From positions 1 through 64,000 of the IMG/VR virus record IMGVR_UViG_3300042691_017212: a stretch of 64,000 bases of DNA, one strand, 5' to 3'. The position numbers and the translations under genes were made by a program. The notes under the pieces are model-generated. The model was given only the letters and a program-made list of their open reading frames with translations. It did not search any database and was not told the DNA's origin. The stretch is from a virus. This document shows, one piece after another, positions 16,271 to 55,402 of the stretch. Positions within the stretch are counted from its first letter, which is position 1. Each line of letters starts with the position of its first letter.

Positions 16271-17629
16271 ATGGCAATTTCTAAAAAAAGATTTGGTACG
16301 CAAAGTTCAGCACAAGATAACTTCTTAGAGCCAAATGCTGTAACAATCAGCGGAGCTACAATGGTTTCTGGTCGCCCCTATGGAAATGGAGCAATTACAT
16401 TAACTTACTCCTTGCCAGCAGCCTCTCCACCAGCAACATTATATACGTTTACATCAACACCAGCAACAACAACTCAAACTTCAACAAATAATTCAACATA
16501 TACTTTTACTGGACTATCTGGAGGTACAAGTTACACAATTACAATAACACCATCAAATGCAGCTGGTAATGGTGCATCCACCACAAGCTCTTCTGTAGCA
16601 ATTGTAACTGTTCCACAGGCACCATCTGCTCCAACTGCAACTGCTCAGGTTAATCAAGATTCCGTTTCTTGGTCAGCTCCAGCAAATAATGGTGGCTCGG
16701 CAATTACTGGATATACATTAAAATCTAGTGATGGTCCAACATACAATTATAATGCTAGTACAACATCAGCAACAATTTCAGAAACTGGTGGAACTAGCCA
16801 GACATATCAAGTTTTGGCTACAAATGCTCAGGGAAACTCGTCATATTCGGCTAGCTCTAATCAAGTTACTACACAATCGCCGTTCTTCCCATTCTTCCCA
16901 CCGTTCTTCCCATACTTCCCACCGTTCTTCCCGTTCTTCCCGTACTTCCCACCGTTCTTCCCGTACTTCCCACCATTCTTCCCGTTCTTCCCATACTTCC
17001 CACCATTCTTCCCGTTCTTCCCGTACTTCCCACCGTTCTTCCCATACTTCCCGTACTTCCCACCGTTCTTCCCGTACTTCCCATACTTCCCACCGTTCTT
17101 CCCATACTTCCCGTACTTCCCACCGTTCTTCCCATACTTCCCATTCTTCCCAGGCTTTGGACCAAAAGTTCCAGCATACAAGTGCGTATCTGTCGATACT
17201 GAAGTTTTGGCTAAAGACGGATGGAAGAAAGTAGAAAACCTTCAGGTTGGAGATAAATTAATAACAATTCATCCAGAAGATTTTAATTACGAGACACAAA
17301 GTGCAAATATAAGTTCGTCTCAAGTTAAATTTGTAGAAACTACAATTACATCTATAGAATATAGCGAAAAGATGACTTATCAGTTGAACGATTCAGAATC
17401 TAAATACTCTGGACAGCAACCAATATTTATCAAAGATGGAGACATCTTCTTGGCAACAACAGTAGATACAGTTCAAGAAGGTTCCATAATGCTAAAGGTT
17501 GATTCAGATGGAAATGTCTCTGAGATTGAATTAAAGTCAATCAAGGAAATGTCAGAAACTAAGGTAGCTGATATAAAGACAGCAGAATATGGATGGCTGA
17601 TCTCTAAAGATAACGTCTTAATGTTCTAA
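16271..17629 (+). CDS. Adhesin: two fibronectin-like domains, FFPxFPP repeat, C-terminal Hint domain
   Basis: The 452 residues divide into three parts. Two fibronectin type III-like domains lie at about residues 32-110 and 113-200 (YTFTGLSGGTSYTITITPSN and the second APSAPTATAQ start). An uninterrupted aromatic-proline repeat of FFP, YFP and FPP units fills 205-294. A Hint (hedgehog/intein) domain begins at Cys305 (CVSVDTEVLAKDGWKKVENL) and runs to the end. The final block EYGWLISKDNVLMF aligns with the usual EHNFYANGVLVHN end, but His-Asn is replaced by Met-Phe. Cys305 may therefore still form a thioester, while Asn cyclisation cannot happen. It ends the fibre cluster, is closed by a perfect terminator and is followed by prolyl-hydroxylase-like genes. 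Confidence 0.8.
   Translation: MAISKKRFGTQSSAQDNFLEPNAVTISGATMVSGRPYGNGAITLTYSLPAASPPATLYTFTSTPATTTQTSTNNSTYTFTGLSGGTSYTITITPSNAAGNGASTTSSSVAIVTVPQAPSAPTATAQVNQDSVSWSAPANNGGSAITGYTLKSSDGPTYNYNASTTSATISETGGTSQTYQVLATNAQGNSSYSASSNQVTTQSPFFPFFPPFFPYFPPFFPFFPYFPPFFPYFPPFFPFFPYFPPFFPFFPYFPPFFPYFPYFPPFFPYFPYFPPFFPYFPYFPPFFPYFPFFPGFGPKVPAYKCVSVDTEVLAKDGWKKVENLQVGDKLITIHPEDFNYETQSANISSSQVKFVETTITSIEYSEKMTYQLNDSESKYSGQQPIFIKDGDIFLATTVDTVQEGSIMLKVDSDGNVSEIELKSIKEMSETKVADIKTAEYGWLISKDNVLMF
16883..17152 (+). repeat. FFP/YFP/FPP coding repeat
   Basis: Ninety codons built from TTC, TAC and CCN only, in 21-nt and 30-nt units. Phe is always TTC and Tyr always TAC, unlike the TTT/TAT-rich neighbours. All reading frames and parts of the opposite strand stay open because of the repeat. 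Nearly identical units recur at 54066-54194. Confidence 0.9.
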
Positions 17630-17640
17630 ATTCAATATAT

Positions 17641-17678
17641 TAAAATATAGGAGGGGAAACCCTCCTATATTTTATTTT
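17641..17678 (+). terminator. Strong intrinsic terminator
   Basis: A perfect 15-bp stem (17641-17655 with 17660-17674), a GAAA tetraloop and TTTT. It insulates the fibre cluster from the oxygenase cassette. Confidence 0.9.
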
Positions 17679-17683
17679 GGGTA

Positions 17684-17712
17684 TTGAATATGTAAAAATG
17701 AAATGATATAAT
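17684..17712 (+). promoter_or_regulatory. Promoter of the oxygenase cassette, leaderless type
   Basis: TTGAAT (17684-17689), an exact 17-nt spacer and TATAAT (17707-17712) preceded by TGA. The ATG at 17719 is 6 nt after the -10, which places the transcription start at or next to the first codon. Confidence 0.8.
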
Positions 17713-17718
17713 TCAAAT

Positions 17719-18462
17719 ATGGAATCAAAAACACAATACGACAATTCAGGAGACACCTGGCTATACAAAGATAGGTCAGAAACTGCTTCTAAAAGAATAG
17801 AAAGAGTTTTTGGAGATATAAAAGTAGAAAACCCAGGGCTCGGATTGAATATATATAAAAATGCTTTTACAAAAGATCAGATAGACAACATTATAAATGC
17901 ACTAGAATCTAATGTTGGAAGCGGAGTTTATAGATGGAATGAAGCCACTGTAACAAACTCAACTACACCAATTAAAAAAGCTAGAGACTGCGTTGATTTC
18001 AAGATGAGCAGAAACTCCCTTGGCCCACGTAATGAAAAGAATGCTGCTCTGCACGATGTTTATGAAACAGTTTTTGATACTCTTAAGAAGTGCGTAGACG
18101 ATTATTCTAAGTATTGGGGCATATTTGTTAACTGGTATGAAGTTTTTAATTTTGTTAAGTATGAGGGTGAAGGAAAAGAGTTTAAGATTCATGGAGACCA
18201 CGGACCAAAATATGTGTGTACAGTTTCTGCAGTAATTTATTTAAACGATGATTACGAGGGTGGCGAAATACATTTCCCAAGGCTAGACGACATTGTAATA
18301 AAACCTTCTTATGGAGACATAGCCGTATTCCCATCAAATTATATATATGAGCATGCCTCATTGCCAATAAAAAGCGGTACAAAGTATTGTGTTGTCATAA
18401 TGATGGACATTAATGATTTGGGTCATAAAGATAACCCATATGCAGTAAAGGTGGAACAGTAG
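17719..18462 (+). CDS. Prolyl-4-hydroxylase-like 2OG/Fe(II) oxygenase
   Basis: A 247-residue enzyme of the prolyl-4-hydroxylase-like 2OG-Fe(II) family. The iron ligands are His158-x-Asp160 (FKIHGDHG) and His212 (YEHASLP), and Lys222 (SGTKYCV) is placed to bind 2-oxoglutarate. The strand YLNDDYEGGEIHFP between them is the family's core signature. It would use O2 and 2OG to hydroxylate a side chain, proline being the classic target. It is the first gene after the FFPxFPP/Hint adhesin and the first of five oxygenases in one unit. It is transcribed from a promoter with no leader. The target is inferred from neighbourhood only. Confidence 0.88.
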   Translation: MESKTQYDNSGDTWLYKDRSETASKRIERVFGDIKVENPGLGLNIYKNAFTKDQIDNIINALESNVGSGVYRWNEATVTNSTTPIKKARDCVDFKMSRNSLGPRNEKNAALHDVYETVFDTLKKCVDDYSKYWGIFVNWYEVFNFVKYEGEGKEFKIHGDHGPKYVCTVSAVIYLNDDYEGGEIHFPRLDDIVIKPSYGDIAVFPSNYIYEHASLPIKSGTKYCVVIMMDINDLGHKDNPYAVKVEQ

Positions 18463-19145
18463 TGGAACCAGTAGTTGAATCACAAAATGAAATAAAGCAA
18501 ACCTGGAGCTTAAAAGAAGATATGGGGAATGGTATCTGGGTATATAGAGATGTTCTTCCAAAAGATTTAGACATCATAAACAGACTAGAGTCTATTCTTG
18601 GGGCTTCAAATAATTCTTTTAATTGGCAGCCAGCATATGTAGGCTATATGGAAAGAATGCCAGAATATAGAGATTGTGTAGATTTTAAATATAAAAAAGA
18701 AAATTTAATTGGTTATCCAACACAAGCAGCAAAAGATTTAGTTCAAATTTGGCAAGACTGTTATGATAGAAAATCTGAAGCAGTAAAAGATTATTGCAAG
18801 ATGTATAACATACAAGAATTAAGATACTGGGAGTCTTTTAATTTTGTTAAGTATGAACCAGGACATCATTTTATGGAGCATCATGATCATGGGTACTCAT
18901 ACAACTGTACCGTTTCTTTGGTCTCATATTTAAATGATGATTATGAGGGTGGAGAGATTTATTTTAGATTACAGCAGCTTAACATAAAACCAAAAGCTGG
19001 GGACTTATATGTATTCCCTTCTAACTTTATGTATCCTCATCAAGCAATGCCAGTAAAGTCTGGAACTAAATACTCATTAGTTACAATGTTAGATTATAGT
19101 TCAAAGTATCATAACCCTAAGTTCTATCAAGAAACAGGGGACTAA
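18462..19145 (+). CDS. Prolyl-4-hydroxylase-like 2OG/Fe(II) oxygenase
   Basis: A GTG start overlapping the previous stop by 1 nt gives 227 residues. It has His140-x-Asp142 (MEHHDHGYS), the YLNDDYEGGEIYF strand, distal His193 (YPHQAMPV) and the 2OG-binding Lys in KSGTKYSLV. It is the closest relative of the oxygenase before it: both share YRDCVDFK or ARDCVDFK-type segments and ESFNFVKYE or EVFNFVKYE. It therefore looks like a tandem duplicate. The two probably act on related substrates. Confidence 0.88.
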   Translation: MEPVVESQNEIKQTWSLKEDMGNGIWVYRDVLPKDLDIINRLESILGASNNSFNWQPAYVGYMERMPEYRDCVDFKYKKENLIGYPTQAAKDLVQIWQDCYDRKSEAVKDYCKMYNIQELRYWESFNFVKYEPGHHFMEHHDHGYSYNCTVSLVSYLNDDYEGGEIYFRLQQLNIKPKAGDLYVFPSNFMYPHQAMPVKSGTKYSLVTMLDYSSKYHNPKFYQETGD

Positions 19146-19867
19146 TGTCTATACTGAAGGCGTATCAGTCACATGAAAATGCATTAAAGATAACTCCAAT
19201 GCCAATGCAGAGATATTGGGCAGAGGACACTTTTGCACGACACGCCTATCATTGTTTTCCAGTAACTACAGCAAATACTATAGGGTGGTATTTATCTTCT
19301 AAATACAGAATTGTTTTTGAGTGGGACGGAATATATCCAGATCCAACTGGAGAACATTTAACAATTATAGAAGGACAAGATTATTGTCACTCTAAAAGAG
19401 GGCATTTAACATTAAGTATAGGTACTGGATTAAAATTTACATCAGATAAAAATATTAGCTTGTGGACAATCAATCCAGTTAATTATTTTAATAAAGATTG
19501 GGAGGTTATGTCATCCCTTATTAGTACTTCTTTTTATAACCAAGAACTTCCTTTAGCTCTTAGAGTGATTTCTCCAAATAAAAAAATTGTTATAGAGCCA
19601 GGAGAACCAATAGCAACAATTGTTCCAATATCTTTAAGTTTATTAAAAAATGAATCAATAGACATTTATGATTGGCATATGACAGCAGAATATACACAAT
19701 ATAACAAAGAGTATGGAGAGGCTGCTGCACAAAAAAATATGCGTGGAATATGGACGGATTGGTACAGAGATGCAGTAAATTATAAAGGAGAAAAAATAGG
19801 AGAACATGAAGCCAAAGCACTTAAGCTTAAGGTGAATAACTATTCAGAAAGATTTAAGGATGAGTAA
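19145..19867 (+). CDS. Conserved protein of unknown function in the oxygenase cassette
   Basis: This 240-residue protein has the pattern HCFPVTTANTIGWYLSSKYR, then IEGQDYCHSKRGHLTLSIGTG, then EPGEPIATIVPISLSLL. It resembles proteins annotated as DUF6065, which I recall only from general knowledge. The segment layout suggests a small cupin-like beta barrel. The next gene has a weakly similar plan. Its place among 2OG oxygenases suggests a partner in the same modification pathway. No catalytic motif is certain. Confidence 0.6.
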   Translation: MSILKAYQSHENALKITPMPMQRYWAEDTFARHAYHCFPVTTANTIGWYLSSKYRIVFEWDGIYPDPTGEHLTIIEGQDYCHSKRGHLTLSIGTGLKFTSDKNISLWTINPVNYFNKDWEVMSSLISTSFYNQELPLALRVISPNKKIVIEPGEPIATIVPISLSLLKNESIDIYDWHMTAEYTQYNKEYGEAAAQKNMRGIWTDWYRDAVNYKGEKIGEHEAKALKLKVNNYSERFKDE

Positions 19868-20603
19868 TAAAATAAGATTTGTTGCTAATAGGCCATGGTT
19901 AGATAAGGACAGTTTTGGTGCACCCACTACAATACTAAAAACAATTCCAGACTGGTATAGAAAGGCTGACAGGTTTGCAAAAAACCAAAAGGGTGATTTT
20001 GTTATCGGACCCGATAAAGGAAAGATACCAACGTGGAAAGCTTGTCCAGCAGTATTTGATGTTATGGGTACTGGGTATGCTTATGTAACTCCTTATGACA
20101 TAGAATTTTTTATAAATGATAGGGGCGTGATTGATGCCAAGATATTGAATAATGAAAACAGTCCATCATTTTATCCAAGTTTAGTTACCCCAAGACCTCC
20201 AATGCCCCAGTTTCATCATCCAGAAGGATACTACAAAGATCATTTTGCTTGGTTCCCAGAGTGGGCAATAGAGACCCCAGAAGGATATAGCGCACTGTAT
20301 GTTCACCCATTAAATAGATATGAACTTCCATTCTTTACAGTTAGCGGGATTATTGACAATGACGATGTTAACCTCCCAGGTTCAATGCCGTTTTTTGTAA
20401 GGGAGGGATTTGTTGGTATAATTGAGGCAGGTACCCCGTTTGCACAAATAATACCTTTTAAGCGTGAAGATTGGGAATCCGAAATCATTATAGAAAGTAA
20501 ATATGATTTAGCTAGAAAAAATGCAATTAACTCACAAAGATTTAGAAGACCAAATGGTGGGGTATATAAAAATGAGGTTTGGTCTCAAAGGAAATATACA
20601 TGA
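19860..20603 (+). CDS. Conserved protein of unknown function, paralogue-like of its neighbour
   Basis: A 247-residue protein overlapping the previous gene by 8 nt. The pattern KACPAVFDVMGTGYAYVTPY, then FHHPEGYYKDHFAWFPEWAI, then EAGTPFAQIIPFKREDWESE mirrors the order seen in the preceding gene (Cys-Pro start, GY or GW aromatic strand, then an E-x-G-x-P-x-A strand). The two are therefore probably distant paralogues. Proteins of this type travel with 2OG oxygenases in phage contigs, as far as I recall. Function is unknown. Confidence 0.6.
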   Translation: MSNKIRFVANRPWLDKDSFGAPTTILKTIPDWYRKADRFAKNQKGDFVIGPDKGKIPTWKACPAVFDVMGTGYAYVTPYDIEFFINDRGVIDAKILNNENSPSFYPSLVTPRPPMPQFHHPEGYYKDHFAWFPEWAIETPEGYSALYVHPLNRYELPFFTVSGIIDNDDVNLPGSMPFFVREGFVGIIEAGTPFAQIIPFKREDWESEIIIESKYDLARKNAINSQRFRRPNGGVYKNEVWSQRKYT

Positions 20604-21277
20604 AAAAAGACTATGCTAATGATATGGAATGGCTACAGAATAGAGTTTCTATAACTCCCTCTGGGTTTTTCGGTTCCTCACCAGAAATGATTCAATCTAG
20701 AGAAAATTTTATGACAGATAAAGAATTAGAATTTTTGTCTAGTCAAGCTAGATCTATTGATGAGTGGGATATAACAGAAACACACTATAATGAAGAAGGC
20801 ACAATAATATACTATTCTGAATACTGGAAAGATCGTGTGGCTTCTAGACCGATATTGGATAAAAAGGATCCTATGATTGCTAGAACTATAGATGGCATGG
20901 TTGCAAGATTAAAAAAAGAAGTAGATAGTTTTTTTAAAGTCAATGCCATACCAACTAGTCCAGCTATAGTTAGATGGATGCCTGGATATAAGCAAGAGCC
21001 TCATGCAGACAAAGAACTTCATATTGGAGATGACGCAGGAAAGCCAAATGATTTTCCATATTATGATTTAGCAGGATTGTTTTATTTAAATGATGATTAT
21101 GAAGGCGGAGAGTTATATTTTCCAAATCAAGAAATTAAATTTAAGCCAAAAGCAGGGGCAGCATATTTTTTCCCAGGAGATAAAAATTTTATTCACGGCG
21201 TATCAGAAATAACTTCTGGAATTAGATATGTGATACCGTTTTTCTGGACTATAGCAGAACATGTAGGAGATAATTAA
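20600..21277 (+). CDS. Prolyl-4-hydroxylase-like 2OG/Fe(II) oxygenase
   Basis: I choose ATG 20600 with AAGGA 8 nt upstream; the open frame extends to a TTG at 20579 that would overlap the previous gene by 25 nt. The 225-residue protein has His135-x-Asp137 (EPHADKELH), the FYLNDDYEGGELYFP strand, distal His199 (FIHGVSEI) and Arg209 (GIRYVIPFFW). The Arg at the 2OG site differs from the Lys in the two preceding oxygenases and matches the two that follow. It is probably an active hydroxylase. Confidence 0.87.
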   Translation: MKKDYANDMEWLQNRVSITPSGFFGSSPEMIQSRENFMTDKELEFLSSQARSIDEWDITETHYNEEGTIIYYSEYWKDRVASRPILDKKDPMIARTIDGMVARLKKEVDSFFKVNAIPTSPAIVRWMPGYKQEPHADKELHIGDDAGKPNDFPYYDLAGLFYLNDDYEGGELYFPNQEIKFKPKAGAAYFFPGDKNFIHGVSEITSGIRYVIPFFWTIAEHVGDN

Positions 21278-21279
21278 AA

Positions 21280-22116
21280 ATGTCAATTAACTTTATAGAA
21301 ATATTTCCAAAAATTCATGTATACCCAAATGCATTAGAAAATACAGATTTTTGGATAAAGGATTCTTTAAATGGCTCACATCAATGGAATGATTGGGGAA
21401 TGTATGGTAAAGCATTTTCAACTTCTCAAAATCTTGTAATCCATGAAAAATTCCCAGAGTTTGATCAGTTTTATAAGAATGCAATAAATGAAAGTCACTA
21501 CCCTTCTTTTGCGGACGTGTACGGAAAAGCTTTTTACAAAAACACTAAGCACTGGCTAGAAATGTATCCTATGGAATTGGATAACTGGATAAGTTCTGCA
21601 CCAGCAATATGCCAGTATACATTAGGGCCAAAAAATGGTCATGGTACTACGTTCGTAATGGCTTATCATTCTGATTATACAATAGGAGAAGAAACTTGGC
21701 CTGGAGATAAATTTGAATTAACTGCAACACTTTATTTAAACGATGACTATGAAGAAGGAGAGATTTGTTTTGTTGTAAAAAATACAGATGGAACAGATAC
21801 TAGGTTTTCTTATAAACCAAAAGCTGGAGACATGATGGTTTTTCCAGCAAGACCTCCTTATTTTCATGCAGTAAAAAGAGCTTATGGAGATAATAGATAC
21901 ATAGTAAGATCATTTTGGCAGTGTAGAAAAGATGGAGACGCTGCTTGGCATGAAGGCATTGAAAAATATGGTAAAGAAAAATGGAACGAAATGAAGATGG
22001 CAGAAATCCATGAGTATAGACAAAAGCATATCCCTAATCCAGAAATATACGCAGACAGTTACAACAGAGACAATGAAAGGCTAGGATTAAATCCAGATGG
22101 AACTTTTAAAGTTTGA
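21280..22116 (+). CDS. Prolyl-4-hydroxylase-like 2OG/Fe(II) oxygenase
   Basis: A 278-residue enzyme with His130-x-Asp132 (AYHSDYT), the LYLNDDYEEGEICF strand, distal His196 (YFHAVKR) and Arg206 (NRYIVRSFW). It carries a C-terminal extension of about 55 residues (EKWNEMKMAEIHEYRQKHIP and onward) predicted helical, absent from its cassette partners. It starts 2 nt after the previous gene and overlaps the next by 20 nt. Confidence 0.87.
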   Translation: MSINFIEIFPKIHVYPNALENTDFWIKDSLNGSHQWNDWGMYGKAFSTSQNLVIHEKFPEFDQFYKNAINESHYPSFADVYGKAFYKNTKHWLEMYPMELDNWISSAPAICQYTLGPKNGHGTTFVMAYHSDYTIGEETWPGDKFELTATLYLNDDYEEGEICFVVKNTDGTDTRFSYKPKAGDMMVFPARPPYFHAVKRAYGDNRYIVRSFWQCRKDGDAAWHEGIEKYGKEKWNEMKMAEIHEYRQKHIPNPEIYADSYNRDNERLGLNPDGTFKV

Positions 22117-22876
22117 TGACCTTGTTATAAAAGAAATCGATACTAGTACATTTATTTACATGAAAAATGAACCCAACAATAAGGGTGTTTTAAATGTACC
22201 AGAAAATAAAATTGTTGAAATACCAAATTTTATTACACCAGATGCTCCAGAAAGACTGATACATTACTTTGAAAATTGCGGAGTAGAATGGGGAGATATT
22301 GCTTTTTATGGATCCTCTGGAAAGGGTTTAAAGCCTGATGCTGCAAAGTTAGCAGAAAGCGGACTACCCTCAACTTTCTTTGAAGACATAAAGTCTAAGT
22401 TTCAAGAATCTGTAGAGACTGTTTTTGGCAAAAAAGTAAGAGCTAATACTTCCCATGCACAGAAGTGGGATGTCGGAGGATTCGCCCCACCGCATTCAGA
22501 TAATTCTGACAATGATGGAACCCCAAATGCGTTTGAAATAAATAAATATGTTGCAATCTTGTATTTAAATGACAACTATGAAGGTGGAGAGTTGTTCTTT
22601 TTAACAGGGTGGCCAGGAGAAACATGGCTTTCCTTTAAGCCAAATAAGTATTCTTTAATTGTTTTCCCAGGAGGCGTAGAAAATATTCACGGAGTTTCAG
22701 AAATAACAAAAGGAACTAGATACACGATGGTGTCATTTTGGGACTTTGCAGATTTAGAGTATGACAAAGAAACTCTAACAAAATGGGAAGAAATGACAAA
22801 AGTGGTAAGGCAAGAGCAGGCTGTACAAAAAGAAGAATGGAAGGCAGGCATAGGCCTACCTCCAAAAGATAACTAG
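22097..22876 (+). CDS. Prolyl-4-hydroxylase-like 2OG/Fe(II) oxygenase
   Basis: A 259-residue enzyme with His133-x-Asp135 (APPHSDNSDND), LYLNDNYEGGELFF, distal His198 (NIHGVSEI) and Arg208 (GTRYTMVSFW). The distal His to Arg spacing of 10 residues is the same in all the cassette oxygenases. An N-terminal addition of about 35 residues precedes the common fold. The gene starts inside its upstream neighbour without a clear ribosome binding site, implying coupling. It closes the cassette. Confidence 0.87.
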   Translation: MELLKFDDLVIKEIDTSTFIYMKNEPNNKGVLNVPENKIVEIPNFITPDAPERLIHYFENCGVEWGDIAFYGSSGKGLKPDAAKLAESGLPSTFFEDIKSKFQESVETVFGKKVRANTSHAQKWDVGGFAPPHSDNSDNDGTPNAFEINKYVAILYLNDNYEGGELFFLTGWPGETWLSFKPNKYSLIVFPGGVENIHGVSEITKGTRYTMVSFWDFADLEYDKETLTKWEEMTKVVRQEQAVQKEEWKAGIGLPPKDN

Positions 22877-22885
22877 TGATATAAT
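22877..22885 (+). promoter_or_regulatory. Extended -10 promoter, leaderless type
   Basis: TGATATAAT (with TATAAT at 22880-22885) ends 6 nt before ATG 22892. No good -35 is seen, as expected for an extended -10. It starts right after the cassette's last stop codon. Confidence 0.65.
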
Positions 22886-22891
22886 TTTAAA

Positions 22892-24652
22892 ATGTCATAC
22901 TATTATAATGTATTAAAAGATTCACCAGTTGGTTTCTGGAAACTTGATGAAACCGAAGGGGCTACTTGTTATGATAGTTCTGGATGTGGTAATCACGGAA
23001 GTTATATTGGAGACCTATTAATACAGGCAATTCCCTTAGTAGAAGGTGGATTGCATTCTACTAAAATAACAAATACTAGCTATGTAGAATTTACAGTATC
23101 TAAAAATTTTAGTGGACTTGCAGGAGGCGGAGGTTTTGGAATATCGAAAACATCCGACAATGATTTTTCTTTAGAAATCTGGTTTCATCCTAAAAACATA
23201 ACTCAAGAAACTCCAATTTTGGCGGACAGTAACGGGGTCGGAATATATTGGGATAAAGGCAATATTATTTTTAGATTAGAGAATGAGGAAATATTTTACT
23301 CTGTTCCTAATTCCAGCAGGTCCATGCATGTGGTAGCCATGTATGGAGTTAAATATATGTCAATGTATTTAGATGGAAATTTAGTAGCCTCTAAATCTAT
23401 TTCTAAAATTGAATTTCAAAATGAGAGCCTTGTTTTTAATTGTGGTCCTGCATTACCAAATGAATATTTTCTTATTGATGCTCCAGCAATCTATAGATAT
23501 TCTTTAAGTCCTAACAATATACTAGATCATTATAATAATTTTATTTCCAACACTGAATCTAATATTGTATTGTCAGACTCTGGAGAACTTTTTAAAGCTT
23601 CAGAAAAATATCAAAATATAAATACTACAATTGCATTTCCTGCCCAACTAGATTGGAGATATCATGTTGACGATAATATACTGTATAGAGAGTCAACAAA
23701 TAGCCTCTACCTATCTCCAAACGCCCTTGAAGGAGAGTTTATAAAAGTTATTAGTTTGCCACATTGGAAAAGTTACGTGTCTTCTAAAGTAGAGTGGTTG
23801 TCTAGTAATGGCGTTTCAGTTTATGTTTCTACTAGTGGAGAGTCTGGGCCATGGCAAGAATGTGAAAACGGAAAAGCGTTACCAGGATTTTCACAGGGAT
23901 TAAATTTTTTAGATAAAAAAGTTTTATTTTTTAAATTCAAATTTGAGTCGGAAGATGCTGCAATTTATACACCTGAACTTTATTATGTTAAAATTCATTT
24001 TTATGACGAGAAGAAAGTTTTAGCGCATGGTGGAGGAAGTATAATATCTACATCACAACCTAACTCAGGATCCTCTTGGGAAATATCAGTGTCTAATGAT
24101 AGTAGCAATATACTATTAAGAAAAAGTGACAACGGAATAACAACAAGTAATTCAATTTTTTACATAGATACAGATAAAGATATAAAGTCTTTAGAGATGA
24201 TATTCTCCCCTAAATCATTATCTAATGGATATCTATTTTATAATAAAACTGGATCAACAGAGTCCTACGTGTCCTGGTCAACAAACGGGGCAATATCCAA
24301 AAATAATATTTCTGGGCTTTTTGTAAATGGGCAAAATGTATCTTCTGAGTTAAACATATCTAATTATTTATACCTAGAAGACCCAAATTATATTTTGATA
24401 AAAACTACATCGTCTATGACTGGGCAAATATGGTTGAATGGTAAGCAGGATGTCGGAAATAGGTCTGGCGTACTAGACGATAATACTTATCAAAATATAG
24501 CTATATATGAGTCTGATTCTATAGATCACCTAAAACATTATAATCTATATATAGGAAAAGATATTATTGAGGCTAGTGATTCTGTCATTGAGATAACAGA
24601 AGAGGCAGTCAAGACGTATTCTAGAGACAGGATTTTGTTAAATAATCTATAA
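22892..24652 (+). CDS. LamG-like (concanavalin-fold) virion surface protein
   Basis: The first 200 residues of this 586-residue protein match the LamG/concanavalin fold: SPVGFWKLDETEGATCYDSS, GNHGSYIG, a FSLEIWFHPKN strand, then MYLDGNLVASKSIS, all in the usual order. The middle (about 230-360) is beta-rich (SGESGPWQECENGKAL). A second LamG-like unit follows at about 390-560 (TDKDIKSLEMIFSPKSLS, TGQIWLNGKQDVG). Such proteins bind sugars and are often minor tail or fibre proteins. It is leaderless by the promoter geometry and lies just upstream of the head genes. Confidence 0.72.
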   Translation: MSYYYNVLKDSPVGFWKLDETEGATCYDSSGCGNHGSYIGDLLIQAIPLVEGGLHSTKITNTSYVEFTVSKNFSGLAGGGGFGISKTSDNDFSLEIWFHPKNITQETPILADSNGVGIYWDKGNIIFRLENEEIFYSVPNSSRSMHVVAMYGVKYMSMYLDGNLVASKSISKIEFQNESLVFNCGPALPNEYFLIDAPAIYRYSLSPNNILDHYNNFISNTESNIVLSDSGELFKASEKYQNINTTIAFPAQLDWRYHVDDNILYRESTNSLYLSPNALEGEFIKVISLPHWKSYVSSKVEWLSSNGVSVYVSTSGESGPWQECENGKALPGFSQGLNFLDKKVLFFKFKFESEDAAIYTPELYYVKIHFYDEKKVLAHGGGSIISTSQPNSGSSWEISVSNDSSNILLRKSDNGITTSNSIFYIDTDKDIKSLEMIFSPKSLSNGYLFYNKTGSTESYVSWSTNGAISKNNISGLFVNGQNVSSELNISNYLYLEDPNYILIKTTSSMTGQIWLNGKQDVGNRSGVLDDNTYQNIAIYESDSIDHLKHYNLYIGKDIIEASDSVIEITEEAVKTYSRDRILLNNL

Positions 24653-24697
24653 TTTTGTCATTATGATTGACAAAAGCTGGACTTGAGGCATTGAAAG

Positions 24698-24706
24698 TGG
24701 TAAAAT
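24698..24706 (+). promoter_or_regulatory. Extended -10 promoter
   Basis: TGGTAAAAT lies 8 nt before ATG 24715, again leaving almost no leader. A TTGACA at 24667-24672 is too far away (28 nt) to be its -35. Confidence 0.45.
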
Positions 24707-24714
24707 AATTACCT

Positions 24715-45837: not shown

Positions 45838-45846
45838 TGGTATAAT
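45838..45846 (+). promoter_or_regulatory. Extended -10 promoter, leaderless type
   Basis: TGGTATAAT (TATAAT at 45841-45846) ends 6 nt before ATG 45853. A TTGACA at 45826-45831 is only 9 nt upstream and cannot serve as a normal -35. Confidence 0.6.
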
Positions 45847-45852
45847 AAATAA

Positions 45853-47057: not shown

Positions 47058-47058
47058 T

Positions 47059-50000
47059 ATGGCAGAAAAAAATCAAGATTTAGGAATTACTCAAAAACAA
47101 GATGGCGACTATACAGATATCGTCATACCAGATCTTGATTTACTAACCACATATGGATTGCAGGTGGCATGGGTTTATGCTGACAAGCAAAAAGGCACAA
47201 GCGATTTTTCTGATGTATTTGAGTTCACAACCCCAGGACCAACTAGACCAGAAGTAACTAATGTTGTTTGGGTTTGGGAAGGTACAACTTTAAAGGGAAC
47301 CTGGGACAATGCAAGCAATAATGCAAAAACATATCAAATATATTTAACTCCAGTTGGAGGAACTTCAGATCTAGAAAGATCTTGGACCAGATCGGCAGAT
47401 CAAACCCAAACAAAGCAAATGTTCACATTGACTAAGGATTCTAATATTGGAAACTTTGGTAAAATATTTAGAACGCAATTCACTGGAAAAATAAAAACAA
47501 CTTATTTAGACGGAACGACAAGCGGTGTTTCTTTTACTACACCAGCATACGCAGATCCAGTATGTACAGCAACTATATCAGATTCTAGCTGGTCTGTTCT
47601 TTCTGTACCAAATGGTATATCTGTTTCTTGGCAAGATGATATAACAAAAGCGGAAACCTATAAATATACTAATGTTTATGTTTCTACATCACAGTCTGGA
47701 CCCTGGGTACAATACAGTGGTACAAGTCCAGTTCAAATACCTCTTTACAATTTTAATACACATTACGTAAAAATAAATCATTTTTCATCTAGCGAATGCG
47801 AGTCTACTACTTCTTCTATTAAAGAAGGAAAAGCTTACGATCCAATAGCTTTTGATGATATACCTCCAGATCCAGTACAGCCTCCAGTTACAGCTGCGTG
47901 GAATACTGATAAGGCATTAGTTGTCTCTTATAAGATGCCAGCACAAAATTTGCCCACATACGTAAAAATATTTTTAACATATAACGGTACAACAAAATGG
48001 TTTGAAAAAACTGTTACAACGTCTACAGCAAACGCATCAACATCATCTATAATAAATAGGCAAGAATTCATAGACGCATTTGGCGAGTCTCCAAATAGTT
48101 TCACCGCTGGATATATAACAGACATGGATGTTTATAGAAATGAAAATACAACTCAAGTTCCTATTTCAAATATAACTACAGCGGTTAAGCCAAACCCACT
48201 GCTTGGTAAAACAACCACTATATCCGTTACTGGAGCTGCAAATGCTTATGTTGTTTCTTCTAATTTAGACTCTAAAGCAACAGGCATTAAAGTTTATCAA
48301 AGCTCTACTGAAAATGGAACCTATACTTTAGTTGCATCTAGCAATTCAAGCCCAGTTATAGTTTATGATGAATCTAGTGCAGGGAGTACTGTTTGGGTAA
48401 AAGCACAATGGACATCTGAAGATGGAAATGCAGAAATGTCTGCAGCCACTTCTGTTTTAATACTTGATGTTGGTGCATTGTCAATTATTGAAAATCCAAT
48501 TAAAATAAAAACAGATGGATCCATATTTGCGGGCACACTTGATTCTAATGATGAGCCAGTCTTAACTGGAGCCAGAGCGGTATTTAATAAGCGTGGATTC
48601 TTTTTATACGATGATAACGATGCAAATGGACTAAATCCAACCACACAAATAATTGGTGAAGACAATGGAATAACTGCAACATTTATTACCAAGAAAGCTA
48701 GAATAGCAAATTGGACTATTTCTGATAATAAAATAGAAAATACTTTAAATGCTACAGCTGGAAGCTATGCTGGATTATCTCCAAATGGAACTTACGCCTT
48801 TTGGGCAGGCGGTGGAGTAGCTGGAGGGTATTCGGTAGATTCTAGTCAAGATGCAAAATTTTCCGTAACTCCTTCTGGAAATGTGATAGCAAGAAATATT
48901 AAAGTTTTAGGTGGAGAAATAACAGTAGGTAGTAAATTTAATGTAGACACACAAGGAATTATTACCGCAACAGATGCTAATTTAACAGGAACAATTAAGG
49001 CACAATCTGGAATTTTAGGATCTGTAGACATAGGTGGCTCCATGATAATAGGTGGGGTAGCAACAAATGTAGATGGTCAATTAAGAGTAACGGTATCTGG
49101 AGCAACTGGGGGTAAGGTAGAAATTGGAAAATTTACCTCACCAGCTACTGGCACTGGCATAGTAACAGTTGGTGCTGGTATTCAGGTTACCAATACAAGC
49201 GGTGGTTGGTATGCACAATTAGACCCAACAAATGGAATCGTGGCAAAGAAGGGCTCTATCGGCGGTTGGAAAATTGATGAATTTACTTTAAGTGCATATG
49301 CAAATAAAGTTGGAATGCATGCGCCAGCCATCCCAAACGATAATTCTGTAGCATTTTGGGCTGGAGGATTAATAGATAATCCTAAATTTAAAGTTACATA
49401 TGGTGGATTGCTAGAAGCAATTAATGCAAAAATATATGGAGAGGTTAGATCTAATACAGCCAAGTTCGGTACATTTAATGATTCTAATTTTACTACTTTA
49501 GAAAAAGGCTGGGAGGTTGATGGGGCACAAATAAAATCTACAAAATTAACTGCTAGTGGAGCTCCAGTATTTTTAGATGGAGAATGGGGAGCAATTTCTG
49601 GAGCAAATGTAATAGCTTCAGTTTTGTGGTTAAATCCAATAAGTGCACAAGTTGCAGCTGCAGAAACCCCAGAGGCTTCTGCTGATTATGGATATGATTA
49701 TATTTCTTCTGCTGGACATTTCAGGCTTGGATCTGGTAAAATTAGGTATAGCTCTTCTGCTGGATTAACTATAAATGCAAACTTAACTGCCTCAAATTTA
49801 TACTTAGGAGACACTGCTGGTTCTGCAGATTATATAATTGGAAAAGCTGGAGATGGAAGATCTGCTGGAGATTTTCGTTTAGGCGCAGGCGCCATAACAA
49901 ATACCAATGGAGTATTTAAAATAGCAACAAATCAGATATACATGCCAAGCTCTGCTAGTATCGACGACAACGATGGTACCTTCGGAGATTCAACTATAGT

Positions 50001-50196
50001 TGTTGCTGATGTCGGCTACGAATCTAGACTAGTAAGAGGAAGAGCTCTTTGGTATGGAGGAAATAATGCTCCAACAAATATAACAAGTAGATATGGATTT
50101 AACGTAGCATTTGGAGCAAATCAAGGAAACGGAAGATTTACTTCATCAAACCCAGGTAATTTTACCAAGGGCGATTTATGGTTACAGAGAGTGTAG
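47059..50196 (+). CDS. Host-specificity tip protein with fibronectin-like domains
   Basis: This 1045-residue protein starts with fibronectin type III-like units up to about residue 460 (TPGPTRPEVTNVVWVWEGTT and PPVTAAWNTDKALVVSYKMP mark domain starts). It then shows the SIIENPIKIKTDGSIFAG and NWTISDNKIENTLNATAG type repeats typical of tip proteins that carry long fibres or bind receptors. The C-terminal part repeats the WKIDEFTLSAYANKVGMHA and FWAGGLIDNPKFKVTYGG pattern. A role in host recognition is likely. It is followed closely by the gene at 50205. Confidence 0.72.
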   Translation: MAEKNQDLGITQKQDGDYTDIVIPDLDLLTTYGLQVAWVYADKQKGTSDFSDVFEFTTPGPTRPEVTNVVWVWEGTTLKGTWDNASNNAKTYQIYLTPVGGTSDLERSWTRSADQTQTKQMFTLTKDSNIGNFGKIFRTQFTGKIKTTYLDGTTSGVSFTTPAYADPVCTATISDSSWSVLSVPNGISVSWQDDITKAETYKYTNVYVSTSQSGPWVQYSGTSPVQIPLYNFNTHYVKINHFSSSECESTTSSIKEGKAYDPIAFDDIPPDPVQPPVTAAWNTDKALVVSYKMPAQNLPTYVKIFLTYNGTTKWFEKTVTTSTANASTSSIINRQEFIDAFGESPNSFTAGYITDMDVYRNENTTQVPISNITTAVKPNPLLGKTTTISVTGAANAYVVSSNLDSKATGIKVYQSSTENGTYTLVASSNSSPVIVYDESSAGSTVWVKAQWTSEDGNAEMSAATSVLILDVGALSIIENPIKIKTDGSIFAGTLDSNDEPVLTGARAVFNKRGFFLYDDNDANGLNPTTQIIGEDNGITATFITKKARIANWTISDNKIENTLNATAGSYAGLSPNGTYAFWAGGGVAGGYSVDSSQDAKFSVTPSGNVIARNIKVLGGEITVGSKFNVDTQGIITATDANLTGTIKAQSGILGSVDIGGSMIIGGVATNVDGQLRVTVSGATGGKVEIGKFTSPATGTGIVTVGAGIQVTNTSGGWYAQLDPTNGIVAKKGSIGGWKIDEFTLSAYANKVGMHAPAIPNDNSVAFWAGGLIDNPKFKVTYGGLLEAINAKIYGEVRSNTAKFGTFNDSNFTTLEKGWEVDGAQIKSTKLTASGAPVFLDGEWGAISGANVIASVLWLNPISAQVAAAETPEASADYGYDYISSAGHFRLGSGKIRYSSSAGLTINANLTASNLYLGDTAGSADYIIGKAGDGRSAGDFRLGAGAITNTNGVFKIATNQIYMPSSASIDDNDGTFGDSTIVVADVGYESRLVRGRALWYGGNNAPTNITSRYGFNVAFGANQGNGRFTSSNPGNFTKGDLWLQRV

Positions 50197-50204
50197 CGTG
50201 AATC

Positions 50205-53200
50205 GTGCCTATATATAGAAAAGCAAATCCTGGAGATCCTGGTGAGTCAGGCGGATGGATAAGATTAAAAAACATATATCGAAAAGCAGACCCTGGAGAT
50301 CCTGGTGAGTCAGGCGGATGGATAAAGTTAAAATCAGTTTGGAGATTTTTGGGTGGGTCTTCCTGGGAAAGAGTATTTGGAATTTTATGTCCTTACTCTA
50401 CTGGCTCTGAAAATGTTCCAAAGTTTTACTTTATAGAATCTCCATACACGTCTACAGCAAACAAAAGCCAAGACGCAGATAGGTACTCTGGAGCGGCGTG
50501 GCAAAACTCAAAAATTTATATAACAAGAGGTAAATGGGAAGAAAGCCCAATATACTTTGAGTTTACATTTCAAAAATCTTTAAATGGCGGAAGCTTTACA
50601 AATATAGGAAGTCCAATAGTAAAAACATATACTTCTTATAATGATAATCAATCTACCGATTTTTTTCCTGCATCATCATCAAATTGGCCTCTTATATCTC
50701 TTAGCGATGTACAAAATTCTGCTAAGTATAGAGTTAAGGTAAGAGCATCAGACACTAATCCTGCTTCAGAATCAGATTTGGATTGCTCTCTTGTTTATTA
50801 CCCAATAGAAAATGGCATATCTCCAAGACTTAAATTTGCTTTTAATCCATATGGAGCAGACAATGACCCAAATATTAGCGGTGTTTCAGAAAATCAATCT
50901 TTGTCTAATTATGTAAATAAACAATTAGCTATACAATGGAGATACAACACTACTTTAGTTCCTACTAACCAAAATTCTAATTCATACAAGCATCAGATTG
51001 TCTGGATGGAATCTATGGAAGGGGAAGTAGTTTTTGGACCAATAGACGTTCCAGTTACTAATACTGCTACTCAGTCGTATACAATAAATTATCCTCAGTC
51101 TGTAGCAGACGCTGGAGGGGAATATGTTGTTAATGTTTTAACAGTTGCAAATGATGGTTACTGGTCAGCAAATTCTTTACAAGGCCATATAGACAGTCTG
51201 GAAGAAACAAGTAATTTAGCTAGCTTCTTATGGACACTTCCAACCAAACCAGTAACAGATAATACTCATGATATAGGATCTAATTCTAAAAATAATAGAG
51301 GAAGAATAGGATCTACAGCAGTACTGCTTTCAAAAGGAAATTGGACAAAGGTAACAGAAGAAACTACATATCTGTATAAAATGAGGATATACGACACTAA
51401 TCCTTTAGACCCCATTGATGTTATTTCAAATGATACTGGAGTTTTTTCTATATCAAGTCAATATGTTGGTAAGCAAGCAAGATTTACAGTTACGGCAACA
51501 AACCCTGGAACATCACTATTAATAAATAGACAGACAGAGTCTATTGGAAAAGACTATAGCATAGACAGTCCACCTGTAGTAACAATAACTTCTCCAACAA
51601 GTAATGTTATATCCGCAAATACTAATTTTCAGATAGAAGCAACTATAACCAATTACCCAACACAAATTACTGTTAATACCACCATTGCAGGTGCCTCTGC
51701 AGCTAAAGATGGTTCATCTGACTACAACAATGTCGTAATATCAATTCCATCAAATACTGCTATATATGATTACTCAAGCCCACAATTGCAATATCCATCT
51801 GGTGGAAATAGATTAATACAAATTACAGCTGAGCCAGAAGGATCTTATGATTTTAAAAATATAACAGTGCCACTTTCCTCTATAACTCCAGGAACAGTAG
51901 AGCTAGTACAACCTTGCGGAGATGGGAAATTTGCAGTGGGAGACTACTTTAATATTGTACCAGTAGGCTGGGTTGGAGACAATGGAGGAGATCCCGATCT
52001 AATATTAAATTATCAATATCGTTATTTTGTCAATGGAGTTCCAAGAGAGTATAACGACGAGATACCAAATAGAATTGGAGATTTCGGAGAGTCAGTAGGC
52101 GATGTGGTTAGAGGTGAAGTTAAGTCAGCATTTTTAAATCCAATTGATTTATCTAAGAGTGTGGAGACAGACTGGATACCTTCTCAAAATTATACAATTG
52201 TTGCTGGTCCAACATACGGCGACTGGGGATTCTGGAGCATTTGCACAGATGTAGATGGTGTAAAGAAAAGTTCAAGATCAAGAACAGAAACTGTTTGCGG
52301 AGTCACCACTACTAAAACAGAAACAAAGAATTGCGGATGGTATTGTACAACAGTTGGTCAAGGAGCTACATGTACTTGCACACAAACCGTAGAAGCTACA
52401 AACATAAGTGGAACTGGTTCTGGATTTTCTACATCATGTAGTGAATCAGGATTTCCTTCATGCCAAGCACCATGTACATGTAATTCAACAGAAGAGGCAA
52501 AATGTACTGCATGGGTTAGAACCTATACGGCTGATTGGTCCGCTTTTGGAGAATGTTCTGCAACTGTATTCGGAATTCCTGGAACAAAAACTCAAACTCG
52601 ACCTTATGTTGAAACTAGAATTTGCCCAACTGGATCTAGTTCAACTAATGAAAATGGAGTTACAACATTAATACTACCCTCGCCTTGCCAAACTTCCAGA
52701 ACTGGAACTCATGTAAATTCTGTTTCATGTTGTAAGGTTGGAACAGAGACATTTGATCCAAGAACAATATATGGTCAATATTCTGAATGGACTGCATGCG
52801 GCACTGCCCCATCTAAATCAACAAGAACTAGAAATATTACTCAAAGAGTTAGTACTAGAACTTATAATGAAGATTGTACCTATACAGATGGCACTAGCGA
52901 CACTGTTACTGTAGATACCGAAACTGCTGATTGCTGGTATTGTACAGAAAATTATCAAGGGGTTAATTGCATTCCATGTGGATACTCAACTGCAATTTTT
53001 AATAATAGTGGAAGTGGTTCTGGTTACATCAGGTCTTGCAGCACTGCTGGATATCCGTCATGTTCAATAAATTGCGTTTGTAATTCTACTGAAGAAAGTA
53101 AATGTACAAATTGGTCTTCATGGAGTGAATGTACTGGACCTACTGGGGCCAAAACAAGAACTAGGACAAGAACTTGTCCGTCTGGATCTCCATGCATAAC

Positions 53201-54803
53201 AACAGAAACTCAAGATTGCTGGTATTGTACAGATAGTTATAATTCAAATTGTGCTGGTTGCGGGTACCATATTGAAGGATCTAATGTTTCTGGTGGAGGA
53301 AATTCTTTTTATTCTACAGCTTGTAGTAGAACAGACTTTCCGTCATGCCAAACATCATGCGTTTGCAACTCCACCTTAGAGTCTCAATGTGGAGGCTGGA
53401 GTAGAGTCGAAGGCACTTCGACTGATTGGAGCGCATGTAATGCAATTGGAGACACACCTGGTAGACAATGTAAAACTACTCCATACACACAAACAAGGAC
53501 ATGCCCTGCAGGCAGTCCATGTGTTACATCTGAATCTGGAAGTACACAACAATGTAGAGACTGCTGTACAGCAAAAACAACTTGCGATACCCCAGTAGTT
53601 ACATATGGAACTCCAACAGAATGGAGTGCTTGCTCAGGAAATCCACCTACTCAAACTAGGTCTATGCCTAGAACTACCAAGACAACATGTACTACTAGAG
53701 CAGTAGATTGCTCAGAATCAACTAGCACTACAACTGTAAATGATACATATGTAGAAACTAGAAGTTGCTGGTACTGTACAACAAGCGTAAGTCAAAATTG
53801 TGCAGGGTGTACTGAAACTATAGAAGGAAGCAATATAAGTCAGAGTGGTTCTGGATATTCAATTAGCTGTAGTCAGGCAGGATTCCCATCTTGCGGAACA
53901 CCCTGCTCATATTGGTGGTGCAAAACCACAAGACAAGAGTCTGGATATTGTGCTTTGAGCGGACCACATACGTCAAGTCAAGCTGGTGTTTCAGGAGGAG
54001 GATTTGTTACTGTTTGCCAGCAGGCTGTTTCGCAGCCATATAGCTGTCAACAATCCCCAGCACCGTTCTTCCCGTACTTCCCACCGTTCTTCCCGTACTT
54101 CCCGTACTTCCCACCGTTCTTCCCGTACTTCCCGTACTTCCCACCGTTCTTCCCGTACTTCCCGTACTTCCCACCGTTCTTCCCGTACTTCCCAACTTTC
54201 GTTATTGATACTATCAATACTATTAACACTATCAATACTATTAACACTATCAATACCATTAACACTATCAATACCATTAACACTATCAATACTATTAACA
54301 CTATTGATACTGGCGGTGGTGGTGGATGCCACGTTGTAGGAACTAAAATTCAAATGTCAGATGGGACATTTAAAAACATTGAAGATCTTTATATTGGGGA
54401 TGAAGTAATGGCAGCAAACATACCAGGATTGCCAGACAATGAAACTGATATAAACAATTTAGAATTGTGGTCATCTGAAGATATTTCTGGGACAACAAAG
54501 ACTATAGCTAATGTGACAAATGTTATCATTAGATCCTATGAACAATATTATTTAATTAATAATTCTATCAAGATAACCTATGAGCACATGGTTCCAGCCA
54601 ACCAAGAAGGAATCTGGAAGTTTATAAAGGTAGAAGATTTACAGATAGGCGATATCATTGTTAATGAAAACTTAGAGAATATAGTAGTTATGTCAAAAGA
54701 TTTAATTAATGATTCAGTAAACACAGTTTCAATTGACATTGAGGATAAAGATGTTTATTTTGTTGAGGGCCTAATGGCACACAACTTGAGCGCAAAGACA
54801 TAG
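50205..54803 (+). CDS. Giant tip adhesin: TSP1-like cysteine repeats, FFPxFPP repeat, (TIN) repeat, C-terminal Hint domain
   Basis: A GTG start gives 1532 residues. A 21-residue unit, YRKA(N/D)PGDPGESGGWI(R/K)LK, occurs twice at the start. A beta-rich stem follows up to about residue 665. Then thrombospondin type 1-like repeats begin near residues 671, 778, 858, 968, 1073 and 1138 (for example WSSWSECTGPTGAKTRTRTR), alternating with a Cys-rich module of about 60 residues that starts CWYCT and includes GFPSC. Residues 1288-1330 are the FFP/YFP/FPP repeat and about 1336-1365 are ten TIN triplets. A Hint domain begins at Cys1375 (CHVVGTKIQMSDGTFKNIED) and ends YFVEGLMAHN (His1526-Asn1527) plus five residues. 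Cleavage instead of splicing is expected because no nucleophile follows Asn directly. Confidence 0.82.
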   Translation: MPIYRKANPGDPGESGGWIRLKNIYRKADPGDPGESGGWIKLKSVWRFLGGSSWERVFGILCPYSTGSENVPKFYFIESPYTSTANKSQDADRYSGAAWQNSKIYITRGKWEESPIYFEFTFQKSLNGGSFTNIGSPIVKTYTSYNDNQSTDFFPASSSNWPLISLSDVQNSAKYRVKVRASDTNPASESDLDCSLVYYPIENGISPRLKFAFNPYGADNDPNISGVSENQSLSNYVNKQLAIQWRYNTTLVPTNQNSNSYKHQIVWMESMEGEVVFGPIDVPVTNTATQSYTINYPQSVADAGGEYVVNVLTVANDGYWSANSLQGHIDSLEETSNLASFLWTLPTKPVTDNTHDIGSNSKNNRGRIGSTAVLLSKGNWTKVTEETTYLYKMRIYDTNPLDPIDVISNDTGVFSISSQYVGKQARFTVTATNPGTSLLINRQTESIGKDYSIDSPPVVTITSPTSNVISANTNFQIEATITNYPTQITVNTTIAGASAAKDGSSDYNNVVISIPSNTAIYDYSSPQLQYPSGGNRLIQITAEPEGSYDFKNITVPLSSITPGTVELVQPCGDGKFAVGDYFNIVPVGWVGDNGGDPDLILNYQYRYFVNGVPREYNDEIPNRIGDFGESVGDVVRGEVKSAFLNPIDLSKSVETDWIPSQNYTIVAGPTYGDWGFWSICTDVDGVKKSSRSRTETVCGVTTTKTETKNCGWYCTTVGQGATCTCTQTVEATNISGTGSGFSTSCSESGFPSCQAPCTCNSTEEAKCTAWVRTYTADWSAFGECSATVFGIPGTKTQTRPYVETRICPTGSSSTNENGVTTLILPSPCQTSRTGTHVNSVSCCKVGTETFDPRTIYGQYSEWTACGTAPSKSTRTRNITQRVSTRTYNEDCTYTDGTSDTVTVDTETADCWYCTENYQGVNCIPCGYSTAIFNNSGSGSGYIRSCSTAGYPSCSINCVCNSTEESKCTNWSSWSECTGPTGAKTRTRTRTCPSGSPCITTETQDCWYCTDSYNSNCAGCGYHIEGSNVSGGGNSFYSTACSRTDFPSCQTSCVCNSTLESQCGGWSRVEGTSTDWSACNAIGDTPGRQCKTTPYTQTRTCPAGSPCVTSESGSTQQCRDCCTAKTTCDTPVVTYGTPTEWSACSGNPPTQTRSMPRTTKTTCTTRAVDCSESTSTTTVNDTYVETRSCWYCTTSVSQNCAGCTETIEGSNISQSGSGYSISCSQAGFPSCGTPCSYWWCKTTRQESGYCALSGPHTSSQAGVSGGGFVTVCQQAVSQPYSCQQSPAPFFPYFPPFFPYFPYFPPFFPYFPYFPPFFPYFPYFPPFFPYFPTFVIDTINTINTINTINTINTINTINTINTINTINTIDTGGGGGCHVVGTKIQMSDGTFKNIEDLYIGDEVMAANIPGLPDNETDINNLELWSSEDISGTTKTIANVTNVIIRSYEQYYLINNSIKITYEHMVPANQEGIWKFIKVEDLQIGDIIVNENLENIVVMSKDLINDSVNTVSIDIEDKDVYFVEGLMAHNLSAKT
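50229..50325 (+). repeat. Tandem 63-nt repeat at the adhesin N-terminus
   Basis: A 34-nt block (50229-50262) is repeated exactly at 50292-50325, a period of 63 nt or 21 codons, coding PGDPGESGGWI. Confidence 0.85.
54066..54194 (+). repeat. FFP/YFP/FPP coding repeat, second copy
   Basis: Forty-three codons of TTC, TAC, CCG and CCA in 30-nt units, matching the repeat at 16883-17152 nearly base for base. The codons are G+C-rich compared with the surroundings. Confidence 0.9.
54210..54299 (+). repeat. 18-nt tandem repeat coding ten TIN triplets
   Basis: Alternating ACTATCAAT and ACTATTAAC (or ACCATTAAC) gives ten Thr-Ile-Asn units between the FFP repeat and a GGGGG linker before the Hint cysteine. 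Confidence 0.9.
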
Positions 54804-54820
54804 GAGCTAAAGGATAAAAA

Positions 54821-55402
54821 ATGATTACAGAAAACCTAGGTAATAATATATATATGTATAAAAATGTTATTTCTGAAGATTTAGATATTTTGTCTGAGCT
54901 TAATAAAATATTGTCTGACTATAATAAAGATTACAATGCTGCAACAATAAATAATCATGACTACGATACATCTTTAAGGTCTTGCACCGTATTCTCTTTA
55001 TATCCAACTTTTGGGGAAGATAAACAGTTTAATAATGCAAAAACTATTCTTAATAAAAAAATAGATATGGCTCTTTCTGAATGCATATTGCACTTTATTA
55101 AAAATACAGGAATTAAAATAAAAGAAAGAGAGCCATGGGAAATATTAAAATACGAAATATCGCAAAAGCTTACATGGCACAGCGACGATGGTAAAAGTCA
55201 TCCAGCAACCATCTCGTTTGTTTATTATATAAACGATGACTATGAGGGCGGGGAGATACAGTTTAGAGATCTTCTTGATAAAATTCCTATAAAGCCTGAA
55301 AAAAATAGTTTAATAATTTTTCCATCAGACGCAAAATATGTGCATAGGGTGCTTCCAGTAACATCTGGAGTAAAGCATGCAGTAATATCTTTTGGTAAAT
55401 AA
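54821..55402 (+). CDS. Prolyl-4-hydroxylase-like 2OG/Fe(II) oxygenase
   Basis: A compact 193-residue enzyme with His120-x-Asp122 (TWHSDDGKSH), the YYINDDYEGGEIQF strand, distal His175 (YVHRVLPV) and Lys185 (SGVKHAVIS). The His to Lys distance of 10 and the Lys make it most like the first two cassette oxygenases at 17719 and 18462. It starts 17 nt after the stop of the giant adhesin with no terminator between, so they are one unit. This is the same neighbour relation as at 16271-17719. Confidence 0.88.
   Translation: MITENLGNNIYMYKNVISEDLDILSELNKILSDYNKDYNAATINNHDYDTSLRSCTVFSLYPTFGEDKQFNNAKTILNKKIDMALSECILHFIKNTGIKIKEREPWEILKYEISQKLTWHSDDGKSHPATISFVYYINDDYEGGEIQFRDLLDKIPIKPEKNSLIIFPSDAKYVHRVLPVTSGVKHAVISFGK

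Follow-up and report, generated by a model that had tools for sequence, protein, structure and literature searches.

Results

A gene for a protein with a phenylalanine/proline (Phe/Pro) repeat, followed by an array of 2OG oxygenase genes, forms a conserved module in the virus analyzed here and in related viral contigs. The order was a fibre gene, an fn3-fn3-[Phe/Pro repeat]-variable-tip protein, and then an array of four to nine 2OG oxygenases interspersed with two DUF6065 paralogues. We consider it reasonably probable that the array in such a module hydroxylates a Phe/Pro stalk carrying an exchangeable tip and that enzymes and stalk are co-inherited. The parts of the module, the catalytic residues, the linkage and the co-transfer were read directly from the sequences.

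The putative fibre-associated protein and its oxygenase array

The window, meaning the whole stretch of DNA analyzed, comprised 64 kb out of a 70,113-bp IMG/VR virus record. The major fibre gene, of the Mtd_N type (Pfam PF18454, E 3.5e-15), was located at 13033..16254 (+), and a fibre-type gene family occupied the same -1 position in most related loci. It was followed by protein A (452 aa, 16271..17629, +), whose architecture fn3-fn3-[FFPxFPP]n-Hint-type tip was derived from the ORF, Pfam and AlphaFold. Both fn3 domains (Pfam E 8e-8) were modelled with a pLDDT of about 90, the C-terminal all-beta domain reached about 85, and residues 211-302, which hold the repeat, remained below 50. The FFPxFPP repeat was at 16880..17152 (+; Tandem Repeats Finder, periods 21/30/60 bp) and the Hint-type domain at 17183..17626 (+; profile match E 1.7e-38). 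In the latter, Cys1 was kept, SGQQ stood in place of TxxH so that the block-B His was missing, and the domain ended in LMF and not in the terminal HN. The fold search with the full A model returned fn3 matches only, among the matches listed, and carried no information on the Hint part. A is probably an adhesin-like protein associated with the fibre, with a presumed place in the virion.

Downstream of A, seven genes on the + strand showed the order O-O-D-D-O-O-O (O, 2OG oxygenase; D, DUF6065-type). Oxygenases 1 (17719..18462, PF13640 E 1.8e-10; HxD..H, K) and 2 (18462..19145, PF13640 E 1.1e-14) were of the Lys type. They were followed by DUF6065 paralogue 1 (19145..19867, PF19541 E 3.7e-24) and the DUF6065-like paralogue 2 (19860..20603, assigned by a BLAST cluster shared with 19145 in 82 loci), and then by three oxygenases of the Arg type, 3 (20579..21277, PF13640 E 8e-9; R at the 2OG site), 4 (21280..22116, PF13640 E 1.3e-7) and 5 (22097..22876, PF13640 E 1.7e-9). 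A further oxygenase of the Lys type was found singly behind a second repeat protein, B (54821..55402, +; PF13640 E 5e-14), and was 32% identical to 18462. All six window oxygenases passed the PF13640 cut-off (all >27 bits) and had an invariant iron triad HxD...H. The 2OG carboxylate site was Lys, as in prolyl 4-hydroxylases (P4H), in 17719, 18462 and 54821, and Arg in 20579, 21280 and 22097; in 17719 and 54821 the Lys lay ten residues past the distal His. The closest solved structures to 18462 by sequence were the bacterial prolyl 4-hydroxylases 3itq/5hv0 (E 2.5e-4) and the lysyl hydroxylase LH3. The DUF6065 model showed a weak likeness to the dUTPase fold (TM by query 0.38). Elsewhere in the window, a sulfotransferase-like gene (1971-2567, below cut-off) and a TylF-like methyltransferase gene (2842-3462) were observed.

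The first-pass annotation had stated that the gene next to each of A and B is a 2OG oxygenase whose 2OG site carries Lys. This was correct for both 17719 and 54821 (PF13640, HxD...H), with the correction that 17719 opens an array of five 2OG genes in which the DUF6065-like genes 19145 and 19860 are embedded; only 54821 is a lone next gene.

Protein B (1532 aa, 50205..54803, +; ORF, Pfam) was encoded in the tail region. It carried an FFPxFPP repeat (54063..54193, +; Tandem Repeats Finder, period 30 bp, 99% matches), an Asn-Thr-Ile tandem repeat of 18/36 bp units in the interval before the Hint (54203-54311, Tandem Repeats Finder) and a C-terminal Hint domain (54327..54800, +; profile match). 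The ORFs, the Pfam and profile matches and Tandem Repeats Finder confirmed the earlier observation that A and B both combine an aromatic-proline repeat with a C-terminal Hint-type domain. Recurring WSxW...C segments, accompanied by stretches rich in Arg and Thr (for example NWSSWSECTGPTGAKTRTRTRTC), were also seen in B at 52200-53950; they resembled thrombospondin type 1 repeats, for which Pfam gave no match in B. The start of B contained a direct duplication of 63 bp (50211-50333, IYRKANPGDPGESGGWI segment). B was followed, at 55458-55926, by a small gene and by one for a DUF6171 zinc ribbon, and at many other loci DUF6171 relatives and a similar small gene were located between repeat gene and array.

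Linkage of repeat gene and array in viral contigs

Viral contigs were scanned with the FFPxFPP motif, giving at least 120 stretches, and an iterated HMM seeded with the six window oxygenases found at least 431 oxygenase genes in FFPxFPP loci; these scan counts are among the matches listed and include close relatives. For the slot counts, near-copies were removed and a second repeat type was added. With Phe/Pro-repeat genes as baits, 2OG genes filled 560 of 1196 slots from +1 to +10, compared with 15 of 613 slots upstream and none of 158 at -1 (all among the matches listed). The FFPxFPP and FFxPPx baits gave the same downstream pattern; the repeat profile of the FFxPPx bait includes DUF6065 paralogue 2 proteins, and the repeat-protein counts exclude them. 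The order of the array was kept across loci as OODD... or ODOD....

In the reverse test, loci were picked by DUF6065 gene alignment and the repeat was not used. A Phe/Pro-repeat gene was found at most three genes upstream in 61 of the 63 informative cassettes (among the matches listed), and in the remaining two no more than two small genes separated the cassette from the contig end. Conversely, 40 of 41 large repeat-bearing records contained DUF6065 (among the matches listed). Three genomes (G004, G015, G017) had a tail-region repeat protein with no adjoining 2OG gene and an array elsewhere in the same genome. Chance adjacency was ruled out by the upstream/downstream contrast together with the reverse bait. 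Adjacency of a P4H-like gene in other phage contigs, the check proposed in the first-pass annotation, was strongly positive in both directions, which supports a dedicated link between aromatic-proline repeat and P4H-like oxygenases. The linkage strengthens the proposal that the oxygenases may act on the repeat.

Four FFxPPx loci (L289, L295, L297, L298) carried two genes between repeat protein and array, one acetyltransferase-like by eye (~180 aa) and the other of ~194 aa, and their Hint domains began with Ser, not Cys. The FFPxFPP scan of genomes gave three contigs. One of them (L457, Chitinophagaceae MAG) contained the module with repeat protein and array and is probably a phage contig within the MAG; the other two were chance matches.

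Oxygenase classes and composition of the repeat

The iron site HxD..H was retained in 1040 of 1085 distinct 2OG oxygenases, and the 2OG-site residue followed the position in the array: 382 of 401 oxygenases before or between the two DUF6065 genes were of the Lys type, and 196 of 197 first oxygenases after them of the Arg type, with later ones mixed (all among the matches listed). This residue order suggests that the array members may have distinct conserved roles and are not redundant copies. The repeat windows consisted of 43% Phe, 37% Pro and 4% Gly, and lacked the collagen-like Gly-X-Y pattern; the repeat of A contains neither Lys nor Arg.

Capsid-matched controls and co-transfer

Control loci were picked by the major capsid protein, the records used being 79-100% identical to that of the window. 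Where cassette and slot were both in view, a Phe/Pro repeat protein was present, often of another type (FFxPPx, PPHFPPFF); in one case (G026), where the cassette was reduced, it was a TPFGF repeat instead. Five records in which the slot could be seen (G022, G023, G029, G031, G032) contained neither a 2OG gene nor a Phe/Pro repeat and retained the backbone, and their slots held glycosyltransferase-like, collagen-like or other genes as read by eye. These cassette-negatives formed about two reliable clades on the capsid tree, so they represent few independent losses. Contigs ending before or inside the slot (G005, G009, G014, G018, G025, G033, G034) were set aside; the 51.6 kb of G018 included a repeat in the tail region and lacked any 2OG gene. 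L212 and L215 were unreliable as cassette-negatives, the record of L212 having an array further upstream and L215 being a short contig. Loci that appeared to have a cassette without a repeat lacked the FFPxFP pattern, and other Phe/Pro repeats were found there.

The same controls bear on the possibility that the substrate of the oxygenases is some other phage or host protein, such as the Mtd_N-type fibre or a receptor, and not the Phe/Pro repeat. The fibre gene adjoins the module too, and four to nine enzymes seem many for one simple repeat. However, relatives lacking both the repeat and the 2OG genes still carry related fibres. The presence of the array thus follows that of the repeat, not that of the fibre, and we regard modification of another protein as improbable.

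Among the matches listed, the capsid proteins of the 41 large repeat records ranged from 96% to 41% identity to that of the window, with no match in 15. Trees built from three cassette proteins (118 loci) required 2-5 changes of repeat type, against 24.6 in shuffles. In 22 matched records, the capsid tree needed at least four changes and the enzyme trees two or three; when the repeat switched between FFPxFPP and FFxPPx the enzymes switched along, whereas the capsid tree mixed the types. The fewer changes on the enzyme trees indicated that enzymes and repeat type travel together between backbones. Neighbouring genes may move together without acting on one another, and physical linkage alone could yield such co-transfer, so an enzyme-substrate relation is supported and not proven. 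The window capsid was 58-63% identical to those of Streptomyces phages, and these relatives suggest that the host may be actinobacterial.

Block transfer accounts for much of the tree result, and this agrees with another explanation, in which the 2OG and DUF6065 proteins synthesize or alter a small molecule, a glycan (such as one at the surface) or a nucleotide (such as an unusual base) and the repeat is adjacent as part of a recombining fibre-region block. The weakly dUTPase-like DUF6065 model hints at nucleotide chemistry, and the sulfotransferase-like and methyltransferase genes of the window would also fit this explanation. This explanation must however face the 61 of 63 cassettes, among the matches listed, that adjoin a repeat although picked without it, the several repeat chemistries that retain the same cassette, the relatives with glycosyltransferase-like or collagen-like slot genes and no 2OG genes, and the protein prolyl and lysyl hydroxylases found closest to 18462 among solved structures. 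We consider it unlikely, and hydroxylation of the stalk remained the preferred reading.

The Hint domain as one of several tips

A Hint domain was present in 125 of 340 repeat proteins and absent from 215 (among the matches listed). The Hint profile of the repeat proteins matched the solved bacterial intein-like domain 2lwy (E 2e-12), and some members matched PT-HINT and intein-splicing models. In a residue survey of 58 clusters (<70% identity), nucleophile, block-B His and HN occurred together in about 10, two of them with the nucleophile position unaligned. Most other clusters had Gln/Glu at the His position or had lost HN, with Cys1 usually retained. Judged by these residues, the Hint of A is of the degenerate kind and that of B, with Cys1, TYEH and HN-Leu, of the complete kind. 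PT-HINT in B scored E 1e-3, under Pfam's cut-off, and the residue after HN was Leu, so the standard splicing nucleophile is absent. By tblastn, relatives of the B Hint were found in virion or tail proteins of Erwinia, Dickeya and Yersinia jumbo-phage isolates (25-31% identity, 94% of length).

A 2OG gene at +1 was commoner behind Hint-bearing genes (45/71) than behind others (52/123; p 0.007, uncorrected for relatedness, among the matches listed), which would permit a Hint-specific role in some members, for example B. In the tail-region subset, a small one, the figures were 3/12 and 1/27 (p 0.08). The oxygenase array was nevertheless equally conserved behind non-Hint tips, and a Hint-specific pairing with the oxygenase was weakened, as the array accompanies all tip kinds. 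The best reading is that the Hint domain is one among several exchangeable tips.

These data bear on the scheme proposed in the first-pass annotation, in which hydroxylation of the repeat by the oxygenase is followed by cleavage of the tip, or its attachment to a target, by the Hint domain. The complete residues of B (Cys1, TxxH, HN), the excess of 2OG genes at +1 and the retention of Cys1 in most clusters despite other losses would all suit it. The Hint domain is optional, however, and the array also follows the majority of repeat proteins, which have none; most clusters miss at least one catalytic position, as does A. The Hint domain as working partner of the oxygenase, and cleavage or attachment of the tip as a general mechanism, were accordingly not supported, and the full scheme is given a very low probability.

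Discussion

The P4H-like fold alone leaves the substrate undefined, and related 2OG enzymes with non-proline substrates are known. Given P4H-like enzymes that carry Lys in the 2OG site, hydroxylation of proline would be the simplest chemistry. In the mechanism we propose, A would be built of fn3 domains, a Phe/Pro-repeat stalk and a tip that can be exchanged (Hint, Cys-rich or of another kind). The array of 2OG enzymes would hydroxylate the stalk, with proline as the most likely target, and the DUF6065 proteins would probably assist it. A segment that is very hydrophobic and poorly ordered could thereby become soluble, rigid and extended, and so serve as a stalk for the tip. Tail-region proteins of the B type might be modified in trans by the array enzymes, and in the window phage also by their own 54821. 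The proline target, the mechanical role of the stalk and its place in the virion, like the action of the enzymes on the repeat, are what we infer from gene content and linkage.

More tentatively, the stalk may work only after Pro, perhaps also Phe, has been hydroxylated at several positions by a line of Lys- and Arg-type 2OG enzymes with DUF6065 partners, moved as enzyme-plus-substrate units, with an active Hint adding a covalent step in some members. As part of this multi-site reading, the enzyme-plus-Phe/Pro-repeat system could be widespread and previously undescribed in phages, a view we hold with the same reserve. Among 50,697 records of isolate phages, tblastn gave no match for A or DUF6065, a search in which BLAST masks low complexity, and in the open-access literature no paper was found on the FFPFFPP motif or on DUF6065.

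The adjacency of the repeat genes to a P4H-type battery suggests that phages may introduce chemical modifications into a part of the apparatus with which they bind the host. The module offers a specific, testable substrate for phage 2OG oxygenases. If the reading is true, this would be a case of tailed phages hydroxylating an adhesin that they themselves encode, the Phe/Pro repeat would be a structural repeat of a new kind, and a compact enzyme set would be available with its substrate variants FFPxFPP and FFxPPx already naturally paired.

Comparison with known systems

Aquatic phages commonly carry 2OG oxygenase genes, which are usually classed as auxiliary metabolic genes. The module may be likened to T-even gp38-type adhesins, in which a small gene, distinct from the fibre gene and downstream of it, encodes a repeat scaffold with a variable tip. 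The gp38 protein is glycine-rich and is not known to be accompanied by oxygenase genes. By profile, the Hint domain of the module resembles bacterial intein-like domains (2lwy), and some members match pretoxin Hint models; it differs in standing at the extreme C terminus of a repeat protein and in missing at least one catalytic residue in most clusters.

The oxygenases belong to the same family as the PHROG 61 2OG-Fe(II) oxygenases (phrog_61 E down to 1e-28), with the iron site conserved. PHROG 61 has been described as widespread in marine phages in the Phold paper (PMC12774648), the available part of which treats single proteins by fold and mentions no linked repeat substrate or array. The virus PBCV-1 has a P4H-type enzyme, with proline-containing repeats of the virus as its presumed substrate (Eriksson et al. 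1999, as summarized in PMC9301287). PBCV-1 is an algal virus with one enzyme, whereas the module has four to nine paralogues plus DUF6065, occurs in tailed phages and faces a non-collagen Phe/Pro repeat. The viral use of prolyl 4-hydroxylase remains cryptic according to a Baltic Sea study (PMC9301287).

A further likeness would be to repetitive proline-rich structural proteins of eukaryotes. Animal collagen is such a protein, and 2OG prolyl hydroxylases mature it. Plant extensins, likewise repetitive and proline-rich, are described in an account of them as matured by 2OG prolyl hydroxylases (PMC4769139). Compared with extensin and collagen, the repeat of the module is different and comes from a bacterial virus, and the likeness would be one of function.
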